64,000 nt of DNA, taken from NCBI RefSeq assembly GCF_006516965.1, contig NZ_VHLH01000004.1:62001-126000 (forward strand). The letters are read 5' to 3'. The translations under genes were made by a program, and so were the position numbers. This document shows, one piece after another, positions 27,077 through 41,340 of the stretch (position 1 is the first letter of the stretch; each line of letters begins with the position of its first letter). Source of the stretch: Pararhizobium mangrovi. Lineage in GTDB: Bacteria; Pseudomonadota; Alphaproteobacteria; Rhizobiales; Rhizobiaceae. The notes beneath the pieces are model-generated. The model saw nothing but the letters and a program-made list of their open reading frames with translations. It was not told where the DNA came from and ran no database searches.

Positions 27077-28531
27077 TCAGGCCGCTTCCAGCGGTTCCCT
27101 GGAAGTCGAAACCTCGCCCGGCTGCGCATTTTCGATCAGGCCGCGGTGCATGGCGACGATCGCCTTCTCGAAGTCCTGTTCGTCGACGATGACCTGAAGA
27201 TCGACCTTGCGCATGAGGTCGTGGAGACCGAGCGGCTCGATACCGGCTTCCGTCAGGACTTCGATCGTTCTCGCCGTCGTCCGCGTACCCTTGAGATCGC
27301 GTCCGATCGCGGAGACGAGGGCCACCTTGCGGGTGCGGATCTCGGCGGCCGGATACTTCTTCGCCAGTTCCGCACTCGCCCGCTCGATCGCACTCATCGC
27401 GCCGTTGCAGAAGTGCGTGATGGCGTTCGCGTTCGACGTCTTGCAGATGATCCAGACATTGTGACGCTTCATCGCGTCCAGAATGTCGGTGTCGTACCCC
27501 TTCACGCCGACCATGTCCTGCTCGAAGAATTCGAAGGCGAAGACGTTCTTCAGGCCCGTCACCATCTCAACTCCCGGCTGGCGGGCATCGAGATCGGATT
27601 GAATGAGCGTGCCGGGATGGTCCGGCTCGAAGGTGTTCTTCACGCGCAACGGGATCTCGGCCTGGCGAAGGCTCTTCGCCGCACGGGGATGAATAGCTTC
27701 CATGCCCATGTTCGAAAGCTGGTCGGCGACGTCGTAATTCGTCTCGCCGATGACACGGACCACATCCTTGCCGACGATGTTCGGATCGGCGGAAGAAAGA
27801 TGGAATTCCTTGTGGATCACGGCTTCGCTCGCACCGGTGACCACTGCGATGTGCGAAAGCGTGACTTCCGAATAACCGCGGTCGTAAGTCTGCATCAGCG
27901 CCGGTTGCGCCTGCGTGTATCCGGTGACGATCGGCAGTTCGCGCGAAAGGTCGATGTCGGCGAACGCGCGCCGGATCCGCTCGTCGAGGTCGAGCTGTTC
28001 CTCGTCGCGCCAGCCCGTCAGGTCGACATACCGGGCGTTGACACCGCGATGGCGCAGGATGAGCGCCGTATTGTAGGCGGAATGAGCCTCGCCCAGAGCG
28101 GCAAGCATTTCACGCACGGTCAGGAGGTGATGTTCGAGCTGAAAGTGCCCGTAGGAACAGAGCCGGTTGAGGTCGATCAGGCAGGAACGCACGCCCTCGA
28201 CACGCTCGCGAATGAAGGCATCGGCATCGCCGCGTGCCGTCGGATCCTTGAAGATCTCGGCATTCTTGGCGAGCATCTTCTGCGCGACTTCCGTCAGCGC
28301 ATCACCCCAGCTCCAACCGCCATCGGCGCTGGCGAACAGGGCGTAGACACCGGGTTCGCCGCTCTTTTTGTGCTCGAGAAGGGCGTCCGTCATGCCGCCA
28401 TAGGCGGATACGACGAAGATGCGGTTATATAGATCGGCGTTCTCGCGGTTTCCGATGATGACGTTGTCGAGCAACGCCTCGGTGCGCGACATCGACGTGC
28501 CACCGATTTTCTCTACGGAATGAGAAGTCAT
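27077..28531 (-). CDS. ask: Aspartate kinase of the ectoine-pathway type
   Basis: A 484-residue kinase that phosphorylates aspartate to supply aspartate semialdehyde for ectoine synthesis. It begins HSVEKIGGTSMSRTEALLDN (lysC-type KxGGTS motif) and carries the FVVSAYGGMTDALLEHKKSGEPG insertion typical of the ectoine-cluster enzyme (Ask_Ect), plus two C-terminal ACT regions. Ask_Ect enzymes are thought to escape the feedback inhibition of housekeeping aspartate kinases. GGAG 5 nt upstream of the ATG is a good ribosome-binding site. It is the last gene of ectA-ectB-ectC-ask, 87 bp after ectC, with a strong hairpin in that gap. Confidence 0.93.
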   Translation of the reverse strand: MTSHSVEKIGGTSMSRTEALLDNVIIGNRENADLYNRIFVVSAYGGMTDALLEHKKSGEPGVYALFASADGGWSWGDALTEVAQKMLAKNAEIFKDPTARGDADAFIRERVEGVRSCLIDLNRLCSYGHFQLEHHLLTVREMLAALGEAHSAYNTALILRHRGVNARYVDLTGWRDEEQLDLDERIRRAFADIDLSRELPIVTGYTQAQPALMQTYDRGYSEVTLSHIAVVTGASEAVIHKEFHLSSADPNIVGKDVVRVIGETNYDVADQLSNMGMEAIHPRAAKSLRQAEIPLRVKNTFEPDHPGTLIQSDLDARQPGVEMVTGLKNVFAFEFFEQDMVGVKGYDTDILDAMKRHNVWIICKTSNANAITHFCNGAMSAIERASAELAKKYPAAEIRTRKVALVSAIGRDLKGTRTTARTIEVLTEAGIEPLGLHDLMRKVDLQVIVDEQDFEKAIVAMHRGLIENAQPGEVSTSREPLEAA

Positions 28532-28545
28532 GGAATCTCCGATAT

Positions 28546-28568
28546 GCGTCCCCGGTGACCGGGGACGC
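28546..28568 (-). other. Intercistronic hairpin between ectC and ask
   Basis: A perfect 10-bp stem GCGTCCCCGG/CCGGGGACGC with a TGA loop sits between the ectC stop and the ask ribosome-binding site. No U-run follows, so it more likely marks an mRNA processing or stability point than a terminator. It may lower ask expression relative to ectABC. Confidence 0.55.
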
Positions 28569-28618
28569 TCAAGCGGGGTCTTGATGGCGAATGCACGGGC
28601 GGCATGGAACGCCCATGG

Positions 28619-29017
28619 CTAGGCGGCTTCGCCGGGAGGTGCGTAGGAGCCATCCTCGCGATGGACTTCCTGCCCGGTCACCGGCGGGTTGAAGCTGCAC
28701 GCGACGACGAGATCCTCGCCGGCATTCGTTCGCACGGTGTGACGATCGTGCTCGTTCAGGGCGTACATTACACCAGGCTTGATCGTGTGCGTCTTGCCGG
28801 TGCCGTGATCCTCGATCGTGCCTTCGCCGGAGATGCAGTAGACCGCTTCGAAGTGATGCTTGTATTCGAAGGTATTGGTGCTGCCCGCGAATAGGCGGGT
28901 GATATGGAATGAAAATCCCATATCGTCGCCCGCCAGCAGCAGGCGCGTGGAATCCCAGCCTTCGGACTTCACAAGCCGCTCGCCGCTGCGTGCTTCTTCG
29001 AGTTCCCTTACGATCAT
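28619..29017 (-). CDS. ectC: L-ectoine synthase
   Basis: A 132-residue cupin-fold enzyme that cyclises N-gamma-acetyl-L-2,4-diaminobutyrate to ectoine. It starts [16 protein letters not shown], as EctC proteins do. The metal/active-site cupin motifs are [20 protein letters not shown] and [10 protein letters not shown], and the family-specific [17 protein letters not shown] is near the C-terminus. Length is normal (about 130). It lies 55 bp after ectB. Confidence 0.96.
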
Positions 29018-29072
29018 GTCGTTCGTCGTCCCTGTCTATTATTGTTGCTGAAAGCGCTCGACCGCGTGCGGC

Positions 29073-30368
29073 CTATTCGGCCGCTGCGAGATGGCTCTGT
29101 CCGAAGACCGTGGCGAACGCGTTCTCCATGACGTCGAGACCGGCGTCGAGCACTTCCTTTTCGATCGTCAGCGGGCACAGCACCTTGACGATTTCATCGT
29201 GCGGTCCGGACGTTTCGATGATCAGGTCGTGCTTGAAGCACTCCTTGCAGATCGCCTCGGCGCGCTCGCCGCTGCCGGCATTGACGCCACGCATCATGCC
29301 GCGTCCACGCGCCGAAAGCCCGTGGTTCTGCGCGATCTTCTCCAGCCGGGAAGCCAGATGGTCGCCCTTCTCCTTCACGGCCTTCTCGAAGCGATCGTTC
29401 TTCCAGAACTTTTCGAGCGCGACGCGTGCGGTGACGAAGGCATGGTTGTTGCCGCGGAAAGTACCGTTGTGCTCGGCAGGCTTCCAGATGTCGTGCTCGG
29501 GACGGATGAGAATGGCAGCCATCGGCAGGCCCATGCCCGAAATCGACTTGGCATGCGTGATGATATCGGGATCGAGACCGATCTCCTCGAAAGAGAAGAA
29601 CGTGCCCGTGCGACCGCAGCCCGCCTGAATGTCGTCGATGATCAACAGCGCGCCGTGCTTGCGGGCGATCGCCTGGACCTTGCGCAGCCAGTCGGCAGAC
29701 GCAGCTTTGAGGCCGCCTTCGCCCTGAACTGCCTCGACGATGATCGCCGCCGGCGCGTCGATGCCGCTGCCCGGGTCGGAAAGCTGGGTGTCGAGCATTT
29801 CGGCCGTATCGACGTCCGGTCCGAAATAACCGTCGTAGGCCGCGCGATGGATGCCGGACAGCGTCACACCGGCCGCGCCGCGATGGCCACTGTTGCCCGT
29901 CGCCGCCAGAGCGCCGAGGGACACGCCATGATAGCCGTTCGTGAACGAGACGATGAACTGACGCCCGGTCACCTTGCGAGCGAGCTTCATCGCCGCCTCG
30001 ACGGCGTTGGCGCCCGTCGGTCCCGTAAACTGCATCCTGTAGTTCATGTTGCGTGGCCTGAGGATGATGTTCTCGTACGCCGCGAGGAAGTCACGCTTGG
30101 CGTTCGTGAAGAGATCCAGACCCTGGGTAAGGCCGTCGCTGGTGATGTGGTCGATCAGCGCGCTCTTCATGTCGGGATCGTTGTGACCGTAGTTCAGCGA
30201 CGAGCAGCCGGCGAGGAAATCGATGTACTCGGTGCCGTCCGCGCCGTGGATCTTCGCATTGCGCGCCTTGGTGAAGAGGCGCGGAAAGCTGCGCGAATAA
30301 CTGCGCACCTGACTTTCGACGCGATCGAAGATTTCGGTATCACCAGCGGTCTGCATGGCGTCGGTCAT
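29073..30368 (-). CDS. ectB: Diaminobutyrate--2-oxoglutarate transaminase
   Basis: A 431-residue class III PLP aminotransferase converting aspartate semialdehyde and glutamate to L-2,4-diaminobutyrate. Motifs are FTKARNAKIHGADGTEYIDFLAGCSSLNYGHN, the cofactor region FTGPTGANAVEAAMKLARKVTGR, IIDDIQAGCGRTGTFFSFE, and the PLP lysine in THAKSISGMGLPMAA. I start at MTDAMQTAGD (30368), with GAGG upstream; a longer frame exists without a ribosome-binding site. Confidence 0.96.
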   Translation of the reverse strand: MTDAMQTAGDTEIFDRVESQVRSYSRSFPRLFTKARNAKIHGADGTEYIDFLAGCSSLNYGHNDPDMKSALIDHITSDGLTQGLDLFTNAKRDFLAAYENIILRPRNMNYRMQFTGPTGANAVEAAMKLARKVTGRQFIVSFTNGYHGVSLGALAATGNSGHRGAAGVTLSGIHRAAYDGYFGPDVDTAEMLDTQLSDPGSGIDAPAAIIVEAVQGEGGLKAASADWLRKVQAIARKHGALLIIDDIQAGCGRTGTFFSFEEIGLDPDIITHAKSISGMGLPMAAILIRPEHDIWKPAEHNGTFRGNNHAFVTARVALEKFWKNDRFEKAVKEKGDHLASRLEKIAQNHGLSARGRGMMRGVNAGSGERAEAICKECFKHDLIIETSGPHDEIVKVLCPLTIEKEVLDAGLDVMENAFATVFGQSHLAAAE

Positions 30369-30426
30369 GATGGGGAACCTCTTTGTCTGGACGGAAGACG
30401 CGGTGTGTGCTCGCAACGCATGACGT

Positions 30427-30975
30427 CTAGGCGGCGGATTTCACATTACCCGAAACGCGTGCGAACGGCCCGATCGAGACCAGGTGTTCGGTCGCGTGAT
30501 TACCGTCGAAATGCGTGTCTTCTTCGAAATGTTCCGCACGGCGGATATCCGCGTCGAGTGCGGCTGCGATCTTGCCGAAGAGCGACCACGAGGCGTCGTT
30601 GTCGTCGGTGATGGTCGTGTTGATGTAGGCAACCTCGGCGCACACCTCGCGAGCGAGCACATCGCGCACGAGACGCTTGCCGAGGCCATGGCCGCGCGCA
30701 TCCTCGCGCACGCACACCTGCCAAACGAAAAGGCGATCGGGATCCTCCGGCGGAATGTATGCCGAAACCCAGCCGACGGCCTCGCCGTTTCGTTCGGCCA
30801 GCGCGCAGGTCGAGGAGAAATGCGTGCACTGCAGGAGATTGCAGTACATCGAATTCTCGTCGAGCGTGCCGGCGTCGCGCACCAGCTTCCAGATCTCGGA
30901 GCCATCCTGTTCGGTAGGCTCGCGGATCACGATGTCGTCTTTGGGCTGGTTCTGGTTTTCGTTCACCGGATGCAT
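30427..30975 (-). CDS. ectA: L-2,4-diaminobutyrate N-acetyltransferase
   Basis: A 182-residue GNAT enzyme that acetylates the gamma amino group of diaminobutyrate. Family motifs are SMYCNLLQCTHFSSTCALAE, GWVSAYIPPEDPDRLFVWQVCV, the CoA-loop DARGHGLGKRL, and YINTTITDDNDASWSLF. Two ATGs lie two codons apart. GGAG sits 7 nt before the second (30975) but only 1 nt before the first (30981), so I choose the second. A consensus promoter with an EctR-like operator lies just upstream. Confidence 0.95.
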   Translation of the reverse strand: MHPVNENQNQPKDDIVIREPTEQDGSEIWKLVRDAGTLDENSMYCNLLQCTHFSSTCALAERNGEAVGWVSAYIPPEDPDRLFVWQVCVREDARGHGLGKRLVRDVLAREVCAEVAYINTTITDDNDASWSLFGKIAAALDADIRRAEHFEEDTHFDGNHATEHLVSIGPFARVSGNVKSAA

Positions 30976-31001
30976 GTCCATCTCCGTATAAGTCGACCTG
31001 A

Positions 31002-31029
31002 AGTTTAGGCACTACGAACTAAATGTCAA
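31002..31029 (-). promoter_or_regulatory. ectA promoter overlapped by an EctR-box-like dyad
   Basis: On the minus strand there is TTGACA (31024-31029), 16 bp, then TAAACT (31002-31007), a near-consensus sigma70 promoter for ectABC-ask. The dyad TTTAG-N10-CTAAA (31004-31023) lies across the -10 and spacer. Its TTTAGT element matches the half-site TATTTAGT described for the MarR-type regulator EctR1 of methylotrophs. Binding here would block polymerase. Confidence 0.65.
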
Positions 31030-31162
31030 GCGGATCACGCCCGACTGCCGGTTCGCTCGCAAACGCGTGCGGATCCGGCCCAGACAGTATCTTTATTCCG
31101 CACGACCATGGATCCATAAGCCGACTTCCCTACGCGTAATTCCCCTTGGGAACGCCGCATAT

Positions 31163-31191
31163 TGCCAAAGAAGTTAGTTTGGACTAAATAA
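31163..31191 (+). promoter_or_regulatory. ectR promoter overlapped by an EctR-box-like dyad
   Basis: On the plus strand there is TTGCCA (31163-31168), 17 bp, then TAAATA (31186-31191). The pseudo-palindrome GTTAGTTT-GG-ACTAAATA (31174-31191) has 8-bp half-sites separated by 2 bp, the same architecture as the known EctR1 site. It overlaps the -10, so EctR probably represses its own gene. Confidence 0.65.
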
Positions 31192-31247
31192 ATTTCGAGC
31201 GGAAAACACCCTCGGTTTCGAAGGCGCTGTGAGGATTGGGCCAGATC

Positions 31248-31733
31248 GTGGACGACCGGACGAAGACAGTTCTGACAGCCATGCGCAAAGTCCTTCGGGT
31301 CAGTAACGCAAACAGCAAGGCTTTGATCCGCGAGACGGGGCTTACGCCTTCACAATTGATCCTGCTGCAGCTTCTCGACGATGGACGCGAGAAGACCGCC
31401 GGCGAGATCGCCACCTCCATGCGCATCACGCAGGCGACGACGACGGCACTCATTCACAAACTCGAAGCGCTCGGCTTCATCCTGCGCCATAAGGGCGAAA
31501 CGGACCGCCGGCGCGTCTGGCTCACGCTGAGCACCAGGGGCGAACAGGCGCTCGCGATCGCCCCGGACGGCGTTCATGCACGGTTTCACGAGCGCTTTTC
31601 CCGGCTGAAGGATTGGGAACAGGCGATGATGATCGCCTCGCTCGAACGCGTTGCGGACATGCTCGGCGACGAGGATCTCGATTCGCAGACGCTCGACGAG
31701 GCGGCCACTCCGGTCGGCTACGAGACCGCTTGA
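31248..31733 (+). CDS. ectR: MarR-family regulator of the ectoine operon (EctR-like)
   Basis: A 161-residue MarR repressor. The winged helix is seen in TPSQLILLQLLDDGREKTAGEIATSMRITQATTTALIHKLEALGFILRHKGETDRRRVWLTLS; the DxRRVWLTL wing is characteristic. It is divergent from ectA with two EctR-type dyads in the shared gap, which supports the assignment as the ectoine regulator. The start is uncertain. GTG 31248 has GAGGA 12 nt upstream. A TTG at 31236 follows GAGGA with no spacer at all and is less likely. Confidence 0.85.
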   Translation: MDDRTKTVLTAMRKVLRVSNANSKALIRETGLTPSQLILLQLLDDGREKTAGEIATSMRITQATTTALIHKLEALGFILRHKGETDRRRVWLTLSTRGEQALAIAPDGVHARFHERFSRLKDWEQAMMIASLERVADMLGDEDLDSQTLDEAATPVGYETA

Positions 31734-31935
31734 AGGCCGATTCGCTGATCGAGTATCACCATTCCCGGTCCCGGAAATCGCAGAATTTGCGACGAGTACG
31801 GTCGATAACGGTTCGTATCCGCGTTCCGGCCGAAGTTTGGCGGCCGGATCGTTTGGCAACCTCGAAGCGAGCGCGCTATAGAATCGCGTTCCGATCCTTT
31901 CCATCCGGCCGGCTCGCGAGGAGGCCCGTAAAATC

Positions 31936-33858
31936 ATGACAGACCGCACCTCCGCCCGTATCGACAGCGACCGACTGCGTGCGCTCTTCGAGGGCATTCA
32001 GGCCTTTGGTCGACAAGGGGCGACGGACGATGCCGAGCGGCCGGCCTTCGGCGAGGCCGACATGGCCGCACGGCGCTGGTTTGCCGAGCAGATGAGCGAT
32101 GCCGGCCTTCGGGTATCCCGGGACGATGCGGGTAACCTCCTTGGTCGATGGGGTGCCGACAGCGGCGCGGCCGTCGTCCTCGGCGCCCATCTCGACGGTG
32201 GTCCTTCGGACGCCTTCGACGGTGCGCTTGCGGCGAGCCTCGCGCTCGAAAGCATCCGCACGTTGAAGGAAGCGGAAGACGGCTCTCCGAAATGTTCGAT
32301 CGAACTCGTCGTCTTCGCCGACGGCGCCGGGCGTTTTGCCGATCGTCTGGGCGTGCGCGCGTTTGCAGGCGCCCCGCAGATCGAGGACCTGTCGGCAGCG
32401 AGCGACGTTGATGGCGTGACGCTGGAAGACGCGATGGCCGGGGCCGATCTCAATGTCGCGCTGATCGAAACGGCCGCCCGCTCCGGCGAGGCGATCCGCG
32501 CCTTCGTCGACCTGCATGTCGACGACACCGGCGCGCTTTCGAGGGAAGGCAACGCGGTCGGCATCGTCGAGCAGGTGACCGGAGAGAGTGTGCGGCGCGT
32601 GCGCCTCACCGCAACCGGCGGACATACCGGCACGCAATCGCCGGACGCGCTGGCCGGCATGTGCGAGATCGGCGCGACGCTTTCCTCGATCATGCGCATC
32701 GTCGGCAGCGAAGCCTCGCGTATGACGATGGGCGAGGTGGATGTCGCCGCCAACCGCGGACCCGGCGTTTCGAAGGAGGTCGCTTTCTCGCTCTATCTTT
32801 CGGACCCCGACGAAAGGACGATGCAGTCGCTCGGCGCGGCGTTCATCGCGCTTGTCGAACGTGTCGCGAACGCAAGGGGCCTCGATATGGCGATCGAGGA
32901 GAAGGTCTGGGAGCAGCCGAAGGCGCTCGACGGCGAAATCGCCGGTATCGTCGAAGCTGAGGCGCAGCGCCTCGACCTGACGGCAACGCGTATGGTCGTT
33001 GCCGGACGCAAGGCGCAGATCATGCAGGCACGGGGTCCGAGCGGCCTCATCGTCTTCACGCCGGCGGACGGCGATCCGGGAGCCGGCAAGGTGAATTGGG
33101 ACGCGCTCGAGCGCGTGGCGAACCTGCACCTCGCGACCCTGGTGCGTCTGGCGGAAACGGGCACGAGCCTTGCCGCACCGACCCCGCTATCGCCTGTTCC
33201 GGCCGATGAGGAAGCCATGCATGCGGAGATGGCGGAGGCCGCCGAAGAGCCGCAGACCGTTACCGAGCCGGAACCGGAACCCGTCGCCTTCAGTGCCGCA
33301 AGCATCGCTGCCGCGCAGGAGGCGATGGTCGCCGAGTTCGGCGAGGCCGGAAGCGACGACACCAGCAGCGAGGAAACCGGCGAGGAGGATGCGAGCGTCG
33401 AGGATCCGGCCGACGACGCCATTTTCGATGCTCAGGAGAGCGAACTCGAGGCGGCGCTCGACAGCGAACTGGCTGAGGAACTCGCGGCCGAGCCCGACGA
33501 GGATCCCGGCGAAGAGGAAGCGTTGCCGGTGCCGAGCGTAGCGCATCAGCAGGACGTCGAACTGGAACGGGCGGAAACGGTGGCCTTGGCGGACGAGCCG
33601 ACATCGTCGGTCATCGATGCGCCGGAAACGTTCGAGACCGCAGAGGCTCCGTCCGATCCAGCTGTGGACATGGGGTCGAAGGAGACGGACCAGCCGGAAG
33701 CCGATGGCGCGGTCGTTCAGGACGTGGATATACCTCGTTCGTCCGACGACGATACGGCGCCGCGCAAGAACGACGAGGACACCGAAGAAGACATCGATTT
33801 CGACTTCGAACTCGATGATTTCATGCTGGACGATAACGAACGGCGCGAGGACAAGTAG
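31936..33858 (+). CDS. M20 allantoate-amidohydrolase-like protein with lost active-site residues and an acidic tail
   Basis: A 640-residue protein. Residues 10-410 follow the M20 hydantoinase/carbamoylase fold. His85 and Asp95 (GAHLDGG ... FDGALA) and His194 (VDLHVDD) of the metal site remain. The DEEGxRF motif has become FADGAGRF (127-134), so the base and metal-ligand glutamates are missing. The GHDA histidine is replaced by Arg358-Lys359 (VVAGRKAQIM), and the SHxPxE segment by PADGDPGAG. The C-terminal ~225 residues are Asp/Glu-rich and probably disordered, ending in DFDFELDDFMLDD. I infer a non-hydrolytic pseudoenzyme. It stands alone, with a terminator behind it. Confidence 0.75.
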   Translation: MTDRTSARIDSDRLRALFEGIQAFGRQGATDDAERPAFGEADMAARRWFAEQMSDAGLRVSRDDAGNLLGRWGADSGAAVVLGAHLDGGPSDAFDGALAASLALESIRTLKEAEDGSPKCSIELVVFADGAGRFADRLGVRAFAGAPQIEDLSAASDVDGVTLEDAMAGADLNVALIETAARSGEAIRAFVDLHVDDTGALSREGNAVGIVEQVTGESVRRVRLTATGGHTGTQSPDALAGMCEIGATLSSIMRIVGSEASRMTMGEVDVAANRGPGVSKEVAFSLYLSDPDERTMQSLGAAFIALVERVANARGLDMAIEEKVWEQPKALDGEIAGIVEAEAQRLDLTATRMVVAGRKAQIMQARGPSGLIVFTPADGDPGAGKVNWDALERVANLHLATLVRLAETGTSLAAPTPLSPVPADEEAMHAEMAEAAEEPQTVTEPEPEPVAFSAASIAAAQEAMVAEFGEAGSDDTSSEETGEEDASVEDPADDAIFDAQESELEAALDSELAEELAAEPDEDPGEEEALPVPSVAHQQDVELERAETVALADEPTSSVIDAPETFETAEAPSDPAVDMGSKETDQPEADGAVVQDVDIPRSSDDDTAPRKNDEDTEEDIDFDFELDDFMLDDNERREDK

Positions 33859-33996: not shown

Positions 33997-34314
33997 CTAC
34001 TTCTCGGATTTCATCAGATACCAGAGGCCGGCGCCGATCAGGCCGACGGCCGCGATCGTTGCTGTCGAGACGGCCACCGGGTTTTCGCGCGTGACGCCTG
34101 CCAGATAGTTGCCCTCGCGCTTGGCGTAGCGCTCCGCACGGCGAAGACCACGAAACGTCCCGTCGTAAAGATCGCGCGAGCGATTTCCGAGAAAATCGAG
34201 CGCCATCCGTCCGGACGGCACGGAATTCGAAACCCGGGCTGCCTCGCGACGAAGTTCGTGAATCTGGCGTTCCAGGGCGGTGATGGCTCTGTCGATTTCG
34301 GGATGGTTCGTCAT
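33997..34314 (-). CDS. Small membrane-anchored protein, ElaB/DUF883-like
   Basis: A 105-residue protein. The N-terminal half is amphipathic helix (ITALERQIHELRREAARVS; then RSRDLYDGTFRGLRRAERYAKREGNYLAG). A single C-terminal transmembrane segment (AVSTATIAAVGLIGAGLWYLM) precedes a short charged end. This layout is that of ElaB/YqjD/DUF883 tail-anchored proteins, some of which bind ribosomes in stationary phase; that role is inference. ATG 34314 is used; a TTG two codons upstream is possible. Confidence 0.7.
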   Translation of the reverse strand: MTNHPEIDRAITALERQIHELRREAARVSNSVPSGRMALDFLGNRSRDLYDGTFRGLRRAERYAKREGNYLAGVTRENPVAVSTATIAAVGLIGAGLWYLMKSEK

Positions 34315-34375
34315 TTTCAACCTCGTTCACGGGAGCAGGAAAAAACGGACAACTACGCGAGAATGTTCCAGCTTT

Positions 34376-38434: not shown

Positions 38435-40033
38435 CTACTGCGACAGGCTCACATCGTCGAAGCGGTGGAAGCCGAGCGGGTCCTGCTGGAAGCCCTGGAC
38501 CTTCTTGCTCATCGGCATGATGACGGTCGAATGGTCGATCGTCATCCACGGTGCCTGCTGCTTGAAGATCTTCTGGGCCTGCTGGTAGAGCTTGACGCGC
38601 TCGTCCTTGTCGGTGGTGCGGGCGGCCTTGTCGACGAGGCTCTGGAAATCCTTGTCGCACCATTCCGCGACGTTGTTCGACGTTCCGACGCCGTCGCAGC
38701 CGAGGAGGGTGTTCAGGAAGTTGTCCGGATCGCCGTTGTCGCCCGTCCAGCCCAGCATCACCGCGCCGTCATGGTCCTTCTGGCCGGCGCGCTTGATGTA
38801 TTCGCCCCATTCGTAGCTGACGATGTTGGCCGTGACGCCGATCTTCTTGAAGTCGGCCTGGATGATTTCCGCGGCGCGCCGTGCGTTCAGCATGTAGGGA
38901 CGCGAGACCGGCATCGCCCAGATGTTCATCTTGAGGTTCTTGACGCCGGCGTCGGCCAGCATCTGCTTGGCCTTGTCGGGATCGTACGGATCGTCCTGGA
39001 CGGACTTGTTGTAGCTCCACATGGTCGGCGGGATCGGGTTCGTGGCGACCTGCGCCATGCCCTGAAAGACCGACTGGACGATCGCCTTCTTGTCGACGGC
39101 CATGTTGAGCGCCTTGCGCACCTTGACGTTGTCGAAGGGCTTCTGGCTGACGTTATAAGCCAGATATGCGATGTTAAGGCCCGGCTGTTCAAGAACCTGG
39201 AGGCTGTCGTCCTTCTTCAGCCCGGCCACGTCCGCCGCATTCGGGTACGGCATGATCTGGCATTCGCCGGACTTCAGCTTCTGCGTGCGCACGGAAGCTT
39301 CCGGCGTGATCGCGAAGACGAGATTGTCGAGCTTCTGCTTGCCGTCCCAGTAGTCCGGGTTCGCCTTGTAGCGAATGACGGCGTCCGGCTGATAGGCGAC
39401 GAAGGTGAACGGACCGGTGCCGACCGGCTTCTGGTTCAGATCGCCCATGTTGCCGTTCTTCTTGAGCTGATCGGCGTACTCCTTCGACATGATCGACGAG
39501 AAGTCCATGGCGAGATCGGCCAGGAACGGCGCGCTCGGACGCGACAGGGTGAACTTCACCGTCTTGTCGTCGACCTTCTCGACCTTCTTGAGCAGCGAAT
39601 CGAAGCCCATGCTCGAAAAGTAGGTGTAGGTCGTGCCGTTGGCGTAGTCGTGCCAGGGGTTGCCGTCCTTGAGCTGACGGTTGAACGAGAAGACGACGTC
39701 GTCGGCGTTCATGTCGCGGGAAGGCTTGAAGTAGTCGGTCGCGCCGAACTTGACGCCGTCGCGAAGGTGGAAGGTGTAGACCGTGCCGTCGTCCGAGACG
39801 TCCCAGCTCTTGGCGAGGCCGGGGGTCAGCTCGGTGCTACCGTGCTTGAACTCGACGAGGCGGTTGTAGATCGTGCGCGACGAGGCGTCGAAGGTCGTAC
39901 CGGTCGTGTAGAGCGCGGGATCGAAGCCTTCCGGCGAGCCTTCCGAGCAATAGACCAGCGTCTGTGCCTGCACCGCCGATGCCATGACCGACGCGAAGAG
40001 CGATGCGGTCAGCACTTTGGTAATTCGTTTCAT
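38435..40033 (-). CDS. dppA: Periplasmic dipeptide-binding protein (DppA-like)
   Basis: A 532-residue SBP_bac_5 family protein. Signal peptide 1-23 (ASAVQA). The mature start QTLVYCSEGSPEGFDPALYTTGTTFDASSRTIYNRLVEF is close to DppA of enteric bacteria, as are MDFSSIMSKEYAD and VGTGPFTFVAYQPDAVIRYKANPDYW. The peptide-binding role is inferred from this similarity; some DppA proteins also bind heme or delta-aminolevulinate. GGGAG stands before the ATG. It is the first gene of dppABCDF. Confidence 0.92.
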   Translation of the reverse strand: MKRITKVLTASLFASVMASAVQAQTLVYCSEGSPEGFDPALYTTGTTFDASSRTIYNRLVEFKHGSTELTPGLAKSWDVSDDGTVYTFHLRDGVKFGATDYFKPSRDMNADDVVFSFNRQLKDGNPWHDYANGTTYTYFSSMGFDSLLKKVEKVDDKTVKFTLSRPSAPFLADLAMDFSSIMSKEYADQLKKNGNMGDLNQKPVGTGPFTFVAYQPDAVIRYKANPDYWDGKQKLDNLVFAITPEASVRTQKLKSGECQIMPYPNAADVAGLKKDDSLQVLEQPGLNIAYLAYNVSQKPFDNVKVRKALNMAVDKKAIVQSVFQGMAQVATNPIPPTMWSYNKSVQDDPYDPDKAKQMLADAGVKNLKMNIWAMPVSRPYMLNARRAAEIIQADFKKIGVTANIVSYEWGEYIKRAGQKDHDGAVMLGWTGDNGDPDNFLNTLLGCDGVGTSNNVAEWCDKDFQSLVDKAARTTDKDERVKLYQQAQKIFKQQAPWMTIDHSTVIMPMSKKVQGFQQDPLGFHRFDDVSLSQ

Positions 40034-40308: not shown

Positions 40309-41340
40309 TCATGCGCCTTTGCTGCGGTCGGCGGGATCGTCGCGCACGGTCTCGGACCACGTCGGAAGGGTATCGCCGGCCGCCGGTCGCGCCGCGTAGA
40401 CGGCACGCGCGATCGCGCGGGCAAGGCAGAGAGCTGCACCGTGGCCGAGCATCAGCAACGTGTGGGGATCATCGCCGGGCGGCTTGGCTCCCGTCGCCGC
40501 GGCGAAGACGAGATCGCCGTCGAAGAATGTATGGGAAGGAACGATCGCGCGTGCCATCCCGTCGTGGGCCGCGGTCGCCATGCGCTGCGCCCCGGCCTTG
40601 GTCAGCGCCGCATCGGTCGCGACGATCGCGATCGTCGTGTTGGCGCCGGACGCGAAGGCCTCGCCCTTCCGGTTGGCAGGCTGGACGAGCCCCGGCGTTT
40701 CGGGCGACGGGCCAAGCCCGCCGAACTCGCCATCGACCTCGAAGGGCGCCGCCCAGAAATGCGGACCGTTCCCGACCGTGACGCTGCCATAAGGATTGGC
40801 CGCGACGAGCGCACCGACGGTGTGGCCGCTGTCGAGCACGAGCGAGGCCGAACCGAGACCGCCCTTCAGCGTGCCGGTGGTGGCACCCGTTCCCGCACCT
40901 TCGGAACCGACCGGGAACGTCTCGCCCGCCGCCTCGAACGCCGCACGGCCGAGGGCGTGGTAGGGGTTTTCCGTCCAAGCCTTGTCGCCTCCGTTCGTCA
41001 GATCGAAAAGGATGGCGGCCGGAACGATGGGCACGCTTACCGGCCCGACGGTCAGACCGCGACCGGCCGCACGAAGACCGTCCGAAACCCCGGATGCCGC
41101 ATCGAGGCCGAAAGCGGAACCGCCTGAAAGGACGAGCGCATCGACCGTTTCGACCATGCGGCCCGGCGCGAGCAGGTCGGTTTCCCGTGTGCCGGGCGCG
41201 CCGCCCATCACGTGGACGGCGGCGGTGAAGCGATCGGCGGAGGTCAGGACGGTGACGCCGGACTTCAGCCGCGCATCCGCCGCGTTGCCGACGATCAGCC
41301 CCTCGACGTCGGTGATGAGATTGCGTGGACCGGGTTTCAC
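40309..41340 (-). CDS. P1-family (DmpA/BapA-type) aminopeptidase
   Basis: A 343-residue member of the self-processing peptidase family P1 (L-aminopeptidase/D-esterase, beta-peptidyl aminopeptidase). Family features are NLITDVEGLIVGNA, VSGGSAFGLDAASGV-like glycine stretches (VLSGGSAFGLDAA), GAGTGATTGTLKGGLGSASLVL around the processing-site serine, and GANTTIAIVATDAALTKAGAQRMA. The start is GTG at 41340 with GGGAGG 6 nt upstream. It lies 85 bp after the ATPase gene of the second peptide transporter on the same strand, which suggests that imported peptides are hydrolysed by it. Confidence 0.85.
   Translation of the reverse strand: MKPGPRNLITDVEGLIVGNAADARLKSGVTVLTSADRFTAAVHVMGGAPGTRETDLLAPGRMVETVDALVLSGGSAFGLDAASGVSDGLRAAGRGLTVGPVSVPIVPAAILFDLTNGGDKAWTENPYHALGRAAFEAAGETFPVGSEGAGTGATTGTLKGGLGSASLVLDSGHTVGALVAANPYGSVTVGNGPHFWAAPFEVDGEFGGLGPSPETPGLVQPANRKGEAFASGANTTIAIVATDAALTKAGAQRMATAAHDGMARAIVPSHTFFDGDLVFAAATGAKPPGDDPHTLLMLGHGAALCLARAIARAVYAARPAAGDTLPTWSETVRDDPADRSKGA

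Follow-up and report, generated by a model that had tools for sequence, protein, structure and literature searches.

The window (the whole stretch of 64,000 nucleotides of Pararhizobium mangrovi DNA that was analyzed; host genome size, 3.92 Mb) contains an open reading frame with the coordinates, strand, and length that were given in the earlier note. Its product consists of a core related to M20 hydantoinase/carbamoylase-type hydrolases and an acidic C-terminal tail, and the gene is preceded by a ribosome-binding-site-like motif and followed by a terminator-like hairpin (Table 1). The inverted repeat of this hairpin folds with a minimum free energy of -31.2 kcal/mol (z -6.3). A terminator scan of the region did not report the hairpin, which does not satisfy the T-run rule of the scan; the two sites that it did report are both on the minus strand and occur at chance rate, and neither corresponds to the hairpin. 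A promoter-like TTGGCA-N18-TATAGA was spotted by eye at 31853-31882, and a promoter scan of the region gave none meeting its criteria. No tandem repeats were found, and a search against a defence-system library gave no match.

Table 1. Coordinates of the M20-like gene, its parts, and associated features in the window.
Feature	Coordinates	Strand	Basis
EctR-like MarR regulator, upstream neighbour	31236..31733	+	family match
GAGGAGG, ribosome-binding-site-like, 5' of ATG	31918..31924	+	sequence
Whole ORF: M20 hydantoinase/carbamoylase-type core and acidic tail, 640 aa	31936..33858	+	NF006771 and TIGR01879 matches
Core, residues 1-407; end-to-end alignment with intact homologues	31936..33156	+	alignment
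H85, HxD-motif histidine, kept	32188..32190	+	H in 87/87
D95, kept	32218..32220	+	D in 87/87
G130-A131 where homologues have the catalytic/metal Glu-Glu	32323..32328	+	E-E in 87/87
H194, kept	32515..32517	+	H in 87/87
D197 where the substrate-orienting Gln (RrCbAA Gln196) stood	32524..32526	+	Q in 87/87; PMC10952681 (excerpts)
H230, kept; probably the opposing-subunit His	32623..32625	+	H in 87/87; PMC6117287 (excerpts)
N273, kept	32752..32754	+	N in 83/87
S289 where the carboxylate-binding Arg (RrCbAA Arg291) stood	32800..32802	+	R in 87/87; PMC10952681 (excerpts)
R358 where the GHDA His stood	33007..33009	+	H in 87/87
G382 at the SHxP His position (RrCbAA His385)	33079..33081	+	H in column, 87/87
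Acidic tail, residues 408-640	33157..33855	+	composition; missing from 87/87 homologues
Terminator-like perfect 14-bp inverted repeat with trailing CGTTTT, 33 nt past the stop codon	33892..33925	+	sequence, folding

To the left of the gene, ask_ect, ectC, ectB, and ectA (minus strand) are followed by the MarR gene (plus strand), and the M20-like gene starts approximately 200 bp downstream of this ectR on the same strand. MarR-type EctR genes located beside ect genes have been described (PMC5924519, excerpts). The MarR gene of the window is 80% identical to the one beside the ect cluster of genome G032. The cluster as a whole (27077-31733) is a candidate for transfer, since its Ask is 77% and its MarR 80% identical to the G032 proteins whereas an RNase E-like gene had no G032 match (see below). 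The EctR start may be the GTG at 31248 instead of the listed TTG at 31236; the homologue in L095 begins with MDDRTKT. In the ectA-ectR gap, we found a candidate EctR operator, the palindrome TTAGTTTGGACTAA (31174-31187; TTAGT-N4-ACTAA). Among nine other fetched ect clusters, and with no chance control, forms with one mismatch are present in L097 and L098 and forms with two mismatches in L095, L096, and L099; the latter may be chance matches. Upstream of the M20-like gene, the palindrome does not occur (best site, four mismatches). In all nine clusters, a MarR gene lies beside ectA, no M20 match is present in the stretches examined, and the following genes differ. Because the nine other ect clusters show no M20 match and the EctR palindrome is missing here, adjacency to ectR is not evidence of function, and with neither a conserved ect association nor an upstream EctR site the gene is not assigned to the ectoine cluster.

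To the right, a 107-aa ORF (33997-34320) and then a Dpp-type ABC transporter operon are both on the minus strand and thus convergent with the M20-like gene. The 107-aa ORF has a C-terminal hydrophobic segment and no Pfam or NCBIfam match; by eye, we take it to be like the YqjD/ElaB membrane-anchored ribosome-binding proteins. The minus-strand segment 34376-46601 appears to hold two consecutive Dpp-type ABC operons; the gene that separates them (40309-41340) resembles, by eye, a P1-family peptidase. The substrate-binding protein of the adjacent operon (38435-40033) scored 744 bits against the NCBIfam DppA model, for which the cut-off is 1005.

The core was compared with M20 enzymes in several ways. 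The NF006771 profile matched residues 8-407 with 210.6 bits (E 2.7e-62) and the TIGR01879 profile matched with 157 bits (E 6.9e-46), both below the curated cut-offs (399 and 204, respectively), and no Pfam family was found at E 0.001 (one chance-level match, E 0.12). A structure-sequence comparison identified 18 distinct sequences of solved relatives (best E 2.2e-26), including hydantoinase/carbamoylase family amidases, ureidoglycolate hydrolase, allantoate amidohydrolase, the Rhizobium radiobacter enzyme RrCbAA, and beta-alanine synthase. Residues 1-407 cover both the catalytic and the dimerisation domains and are 34-39% identical to 43 intact homologues, and a quick IQ-TREE analysis of 71 rows placed the core inside a 44-row clade of M20 hydrolases (SH-aLRT 99), although on a long branch. 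AlphaFold models were too poor to use, both for the whole protein as a single sequence (mean pLDDT 38) and for the core with one relative (mean pLDDT 39).

Homologues were collected from family, order, and class samples, which overlap and were drawn from larger groups, with three to four candidates scored per genome. Full inspection covered all 86 matches with E <= 1e-45 (from 47 of the 393 other genomes of the family, 33 of 396 in the order sample, and 6 of 325 in the class sample) and one plasmid copy from Nitratireductor sp. OM-1; these 87 homologues were aligned with the core. An unsampled or more diverged sister outside this limit could exist. Identities to the core in the search tables are 30-40%; in the family, order, and class samples none exceeds 40% and the best score is 255.2 bits. 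Neither the same losses nor the tail was found in 60 relatives or in the 393 family, 396 order, and 325 class genomes. Among plasmids, 706 records matched (best identity 37.4%); of the 40 listed, the one inspected was the Nitratireductor copy, which is intact and tailless. IMG/VR gave no match, and a scan of genome contigs gave a single match to a haloarchaeal M20 protein (26%). The only other M20 match in the host genome is a paralogue that is 26% identical. The genus is represented by one genome among those compared, and a gene that we take to be RNase E-like matched 55 of 112 other family genomes at E <= 1e-100 with 61-73% identity, with no match in the rest at this limit; these values indicate that no near relative is among the genomes compared. 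For the same gene, there was no G032 match at E 1e-100, which could be technical.

Across the 87 homologues, six residues that are present in every sequence, namely E130, E131, Q197, R289, H358, and the His of SHxP, are replaced in the window protein by G, A, D, S, R, and G, respectively. At the motif level, the EEEG of the homologues (given as DEEG in the earlier note) has become DGAG, GHDA has become GRKA, and the SHxP segment is gone, losses that the earlier note had described. The retention of H85, D95, and H194 that it reported also held, with H, D, and H in all 87 homologues; D87, H230, and N273 are kept as well (D87 and H230 in 87/87). The invariance of the six positions argues that their loss is not due to chance substitutions. 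When 76 homologues, of which 49 belong to the 87, were checked with less strict patterns, HxD, DG, EEG, and HxEQ were found in 76/76 and xHD and SHxP/E in 71/76 each.

We take H85 and H194 to be metal ligands and D95 to be the bridging aspartate. On roles that we assume from beta-alanine synthase, H85, D95, and H194 would bind one metal and D95, E131, and the SHxP His the other; the SHxP His would thus be a metal ligand as well, and the GHDA His would not. N273 presumably has a functional-site role, and we take H230 to correspond to the trans His226 of the enzymes in the next paragraph. The numbering of RrCbAA was transferred through the host genome's own intact paralogue L002, in which the first Glu of EEG is residue 132, the Gln of HIEQ 197, the Arg of DFRS 292, and the His of SHNE 386. 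Given this offset of one, RrCbAA His385 was taken to be the SHxP/SHNE His and not the GHDA His. The metal-site histidine is probably that of SHxP and not that of GHDA; both are lost here. The earlier note was correct that the GHDA His is gone, and one correction concerns the roles: with those assumed from beta-alanine synthase, the metal site has lost E131 and the SHxP His, and the loss of the GHDA His comes in addition.

According to the excerpts of PMC10952681, RrCbAA holds its substrate with Glu131, Gln196, Arg291, and His385, the last being substrate-orienting, and the equivalents of all four are lost in the window protein. For E. coli allantoate amidohydrolase, the excerpts of PMC6117287 name Glu127, His382, and His226. 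The His226 is delivered by the opposing monomer; the figure legend there labels AtAAH, and the discussion gives His226 for EcAAH. The same excerpts describe metal sites of two kinds for the group, mononuclear and binuclear, with the Geobacillus L-N-carbamoylase and E. coli allantoate amidohydrolase as mononuclear cases.

The catalytic Glu together with the five metal ligands (H, D, E, H, and H) is thus not complete in the window protein. Because it fails these catalytic tests of the family, the protein should not carry the name of a member enzyme, and it is better described as a descendant of M20 hydantoinase/carbamoylase-type enzymes. Its best NCBIfam matches would label it an allantoate amidohydrolase or hydantoinase-family hydrolase, a label that the active site contradicts.

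The acidic tail that the earlier note had pointed out was confirmed. Its 233 residues include 76 Asp/Glu and 8 Lys/Arg but no Trp, Tyr, or Cys, and the longest C-terminal extension among the 87 homologues is 11 aa. The computed pI is 4.05, which we take to be the floor of the program used. No homologue of the tail was found in the host's own genome or, with a low-complexity filter applied, among plasmids. Against 296 other family genomes, there were just three weak matches (E 7.6e-4 to 0.009), which were taken as compositional. Three short hydrophobic-acidic segments can be seen by eye (about 453-470, 494-515, and 618-632), and the tail is probably disordered.

The earlier note had proposed checking whether the losses and the tail are conserved among orthologues. 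No orthologue with either was found: all 87 homologues are intact and tailless, and by this comparison the losses and the tail appear to be a single-lineage event with no second example. It had also proposed that intact orthologues in the same clade would indicate local decay. This holds in part, as the change is confined to one lineage; however, the intact homologues are just 30-40% identical, and the evidence described below goes against plain decay.

The terminal branch leading to the core is 2.99, approximately twelve times the median of 0.25 (same quick tree of 71 rows). The next longest branch in the 44-row clade is 1.03, and three rows from distant groups have 2.5-2.9. Placement of the core on this branch is unsure, with no support for a nearer sister, and partial relaxation would also give such a length. 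In 124 columns, identity among 43 intact homologues reaches 95% or more; the window protein keeps 67 of these. Within five residues of functional sites, 39 of these columns are lost and 26 kept; farther away, the numbers are 18 and 41, respectively (Fisher p 0.0012, with 13 functional positions and a five-residue cut of our own choice). Away from the site, the more conserved a column is, the more often it is kept: 24% of the most variable columns are retained and 69% of the most conserved (Spearman 0.32, p 2e-8). Near the site, 43% of columns conserved at 95% or more are kept. When intact members were left out one at a time, mean retention was 99.6% near the site and 96.8% elsewhere. In the 80-95% conservation class, retention near the site (54%, n 13) equals that elsewhere (54%, n 61). 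Retention of conserved columns is lowest in the dimerisation domain, at 43%, compared with 61% and 56% in the two parts of the catalytic domain.

The reading frame has stayed open over this divergence. Under neutrality, approximately 36 stop codons would be expected at 2.99 changes per codon, a branch length that is itself a model estimate, or approximately 12 at 1.0, and none was observed. GC contents at the three codon positions are 0.73/0.51/0.79 for the core; the tail has 0.77/0.41/0.75. Synonymous usage per codon in the sense frame is 0.31 in the core and 0.18 in the tail, and seven other ORFs of the window have 0.15-0.43. The two alternative sense frames score below zero, whereas the antisense frames have 0.26, 0.12, and -0.34. 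The value for the tail lies near the bottom of the range of the compared genes, and one antisense frame (0.26) is higher. Nevertheless, codon usage appears coding-like in both the core and the tail.

The gene neighbourhood also differs from that of the homologues. In 11 of 12 regions examined for the 87 homologues, an intact copy is divergent from a DppABCDF-like operon (10 of 11 genomic regions and the Nitratireductor plasmid; the plasmid and G063 copies, two of the 12 regions, are near-identical). This divergent peptide-type ABC transporter suggests that the NF006771-like intact enzymes act on a compound taken up from outside, either peptide-like or of the acylated amino-acid type, and not on allantoate. 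The window gene has no such divergent operon, its neighbours being ectR and the 107-aa ORF. The DppA of the adjacent convergent operon is of another type, 30-33% identical to the DppA linked to intact homologues. When the homologue-linked DppA from G233 was used as the one query, none of 16 host matches exceeded 36% identity; the linked transporter therefore seems to be absent from the host genome.

These patterns can be explained in several ways. We lean towards a lineage-specific M20 pseudoenzyme in which the scaffold has been under selection and an acidic tail was gained, the product most likely being a non-catalytic binding protein. The main alternative is that the gene is degenerating: with the transporter gone, catalysis became useless, constraint was relaxed, and the gene is drifting to loss, with the tail as an extension into neutral DNA. 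The very long terminal branch, the missing transporter neighbourhood, the lack of a host protein resembling the linked transporter above 36% identity, and the absence of any tailed or dead relative among the 87 homologues would all fit this scenario. However, zero stops against some 36 expected, the preferential retention of the most conserved structural columns over active-site columns, the coding-like codon-position GC of the tail, its synonymous usage, which is positive in the reading frame and negative in both alternative sense frames, and the hairpin directly after the tail make plain decay unlikely. We conclude that the gene has, as far as its sequence indicates, mostly evolved as a protein without M20 catalysis.

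A protein that is still active with altered chemistry, binding one metal through H85, D95, and H194 and using D129, D197, and others in place of the lost residues on another substrate, is improbable. Mononuclear sites are reported for the Geobacillus and E. coli enzymes (PMC6117287, excerpts) and there are known pseudoenzymes whose catalytic residues have migrated (PMC10211241, excerpts), but the Glu pair, the substrate-binding Gln and Arg, and two C-terminal His, all invariant in 87/87, are gone together. We give very little credence to a role as co-factor in ectoine osmoregulation or for the adjacent Dpp transporter, with selection acting by way of the location between ectR and dpp. Although the gene follows ectR closely on the same strand and adjoins the dpp operon, the nine other ect clusters have different genes and no M20 match after ectR, the candidate EctR palindrome is missing upstream (best, four mismatches), and the dpp operon is convergent, separated by the 107-aa ORF, and encodes a DppA only 30-33% identical to the homologue-linked one. 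Most remote of all is a regulatory subunit that would form a pair with a catalytically active M20 enzyme, to which it would give H230 and N273 in trans. It would account for the retention of these two residues when the cis catalytic residues are lost, in line with the delivery of His226 by the opposing monomer (PMC6117287, excerpts); yet the genome has just one further M20 match, at 26% identity, R289 is lost, and the dimerisation-domain columns are retained least.

Under the favoured reading of a non-catalytic binding protein, the ancestor would have been an M20 hydantoinase/carbamoylase-type copy of the subgroup whose genes usually neighbour those of a peptide-type ABC transporter in divergent orientation. 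The catalytic Glu, the second metal site, and the substrate anchors would have been lost while the scaffold stayed under selection, and a long, probably disordered acidic tail would have been gained. The product would lack hydrolase activity and is probably cytoplasmic and perhaps dimeric; the low retention of conserved columns in the dimerisation domain weakens the claim of a dimer. Its core may hold one metal ion (H85, D95, and H194) and a ligand pocket of new specificity, and the tail, with its hydrophobic-acidic segments, would contact a basic partner. Directly evident from the sequence are the lost residues, the uninterrupted frame, the graded retention of the scaffold, the tail, and the hairpin. 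Of the two halves of the earlier proposal, the turn of an enzyme to a non-catalytic state has good sequence support; the binding or scaffolding half is our inference, as no partner, ligand, or conserved neighbour was found. In the regions compared, no conserved neighbour ties the gene to a process. A more specific proposal, namely a new bacterial regulator or scaffold with an M20 fold lacking catalysis and the second metal, one metal site plus a trans His, and a disordered tail docking onto a basic partner, is put forward tentatively and is rather doubtful as a whole.

Among known systems, the closest is the intact NF006771 subgroup (PRK09290.1-5; allantoate amidohydrolase/Zn-dependent hydrolase), with which the core aligns end to end and shares a clade in the tree. 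Members of this subgroup differ from the window protein in keeping the six lost residues and in being tailless (87/87), as well as in the divergent peptide-type ABC operon in 11 of 12 regions. RrCbAA of R. radiobacter is of the same family (sequence match, E 2.5e-17) and differs in its complete set of substrate-holding residues. Transferrin receptor and nicastrin are eukaryotic proteins in which an M28 metallopeptidase-like fold has turned into a binding protein. The window protein would resemble them in the turn of the fold to binding, and differs in that they are of the M28 type, eukaryotic, and without such an acidic tail. In the literature searched, by titles and abstract openings of the top matches, no bacterial M20 carbamoylase-type pseudoenzyme was found. 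As a single-lineage case, the gene by itself opens no broad question, and it offers a clear natural case of a metalloenzyme that sheds its catalytic residues with the scaffold retained, with many intact relatives available for comparison. Pseudoenzymes in general are recognized by the loss of a conserved catalytic motif and the retention of the scaffold (PMC10211241, excerpts). The window protein, in which the motifs are missing and the scaffold is kept, fits this concept, and what appears to be new is a variant of the M20 carbamoylase type that is confined to one lineage.
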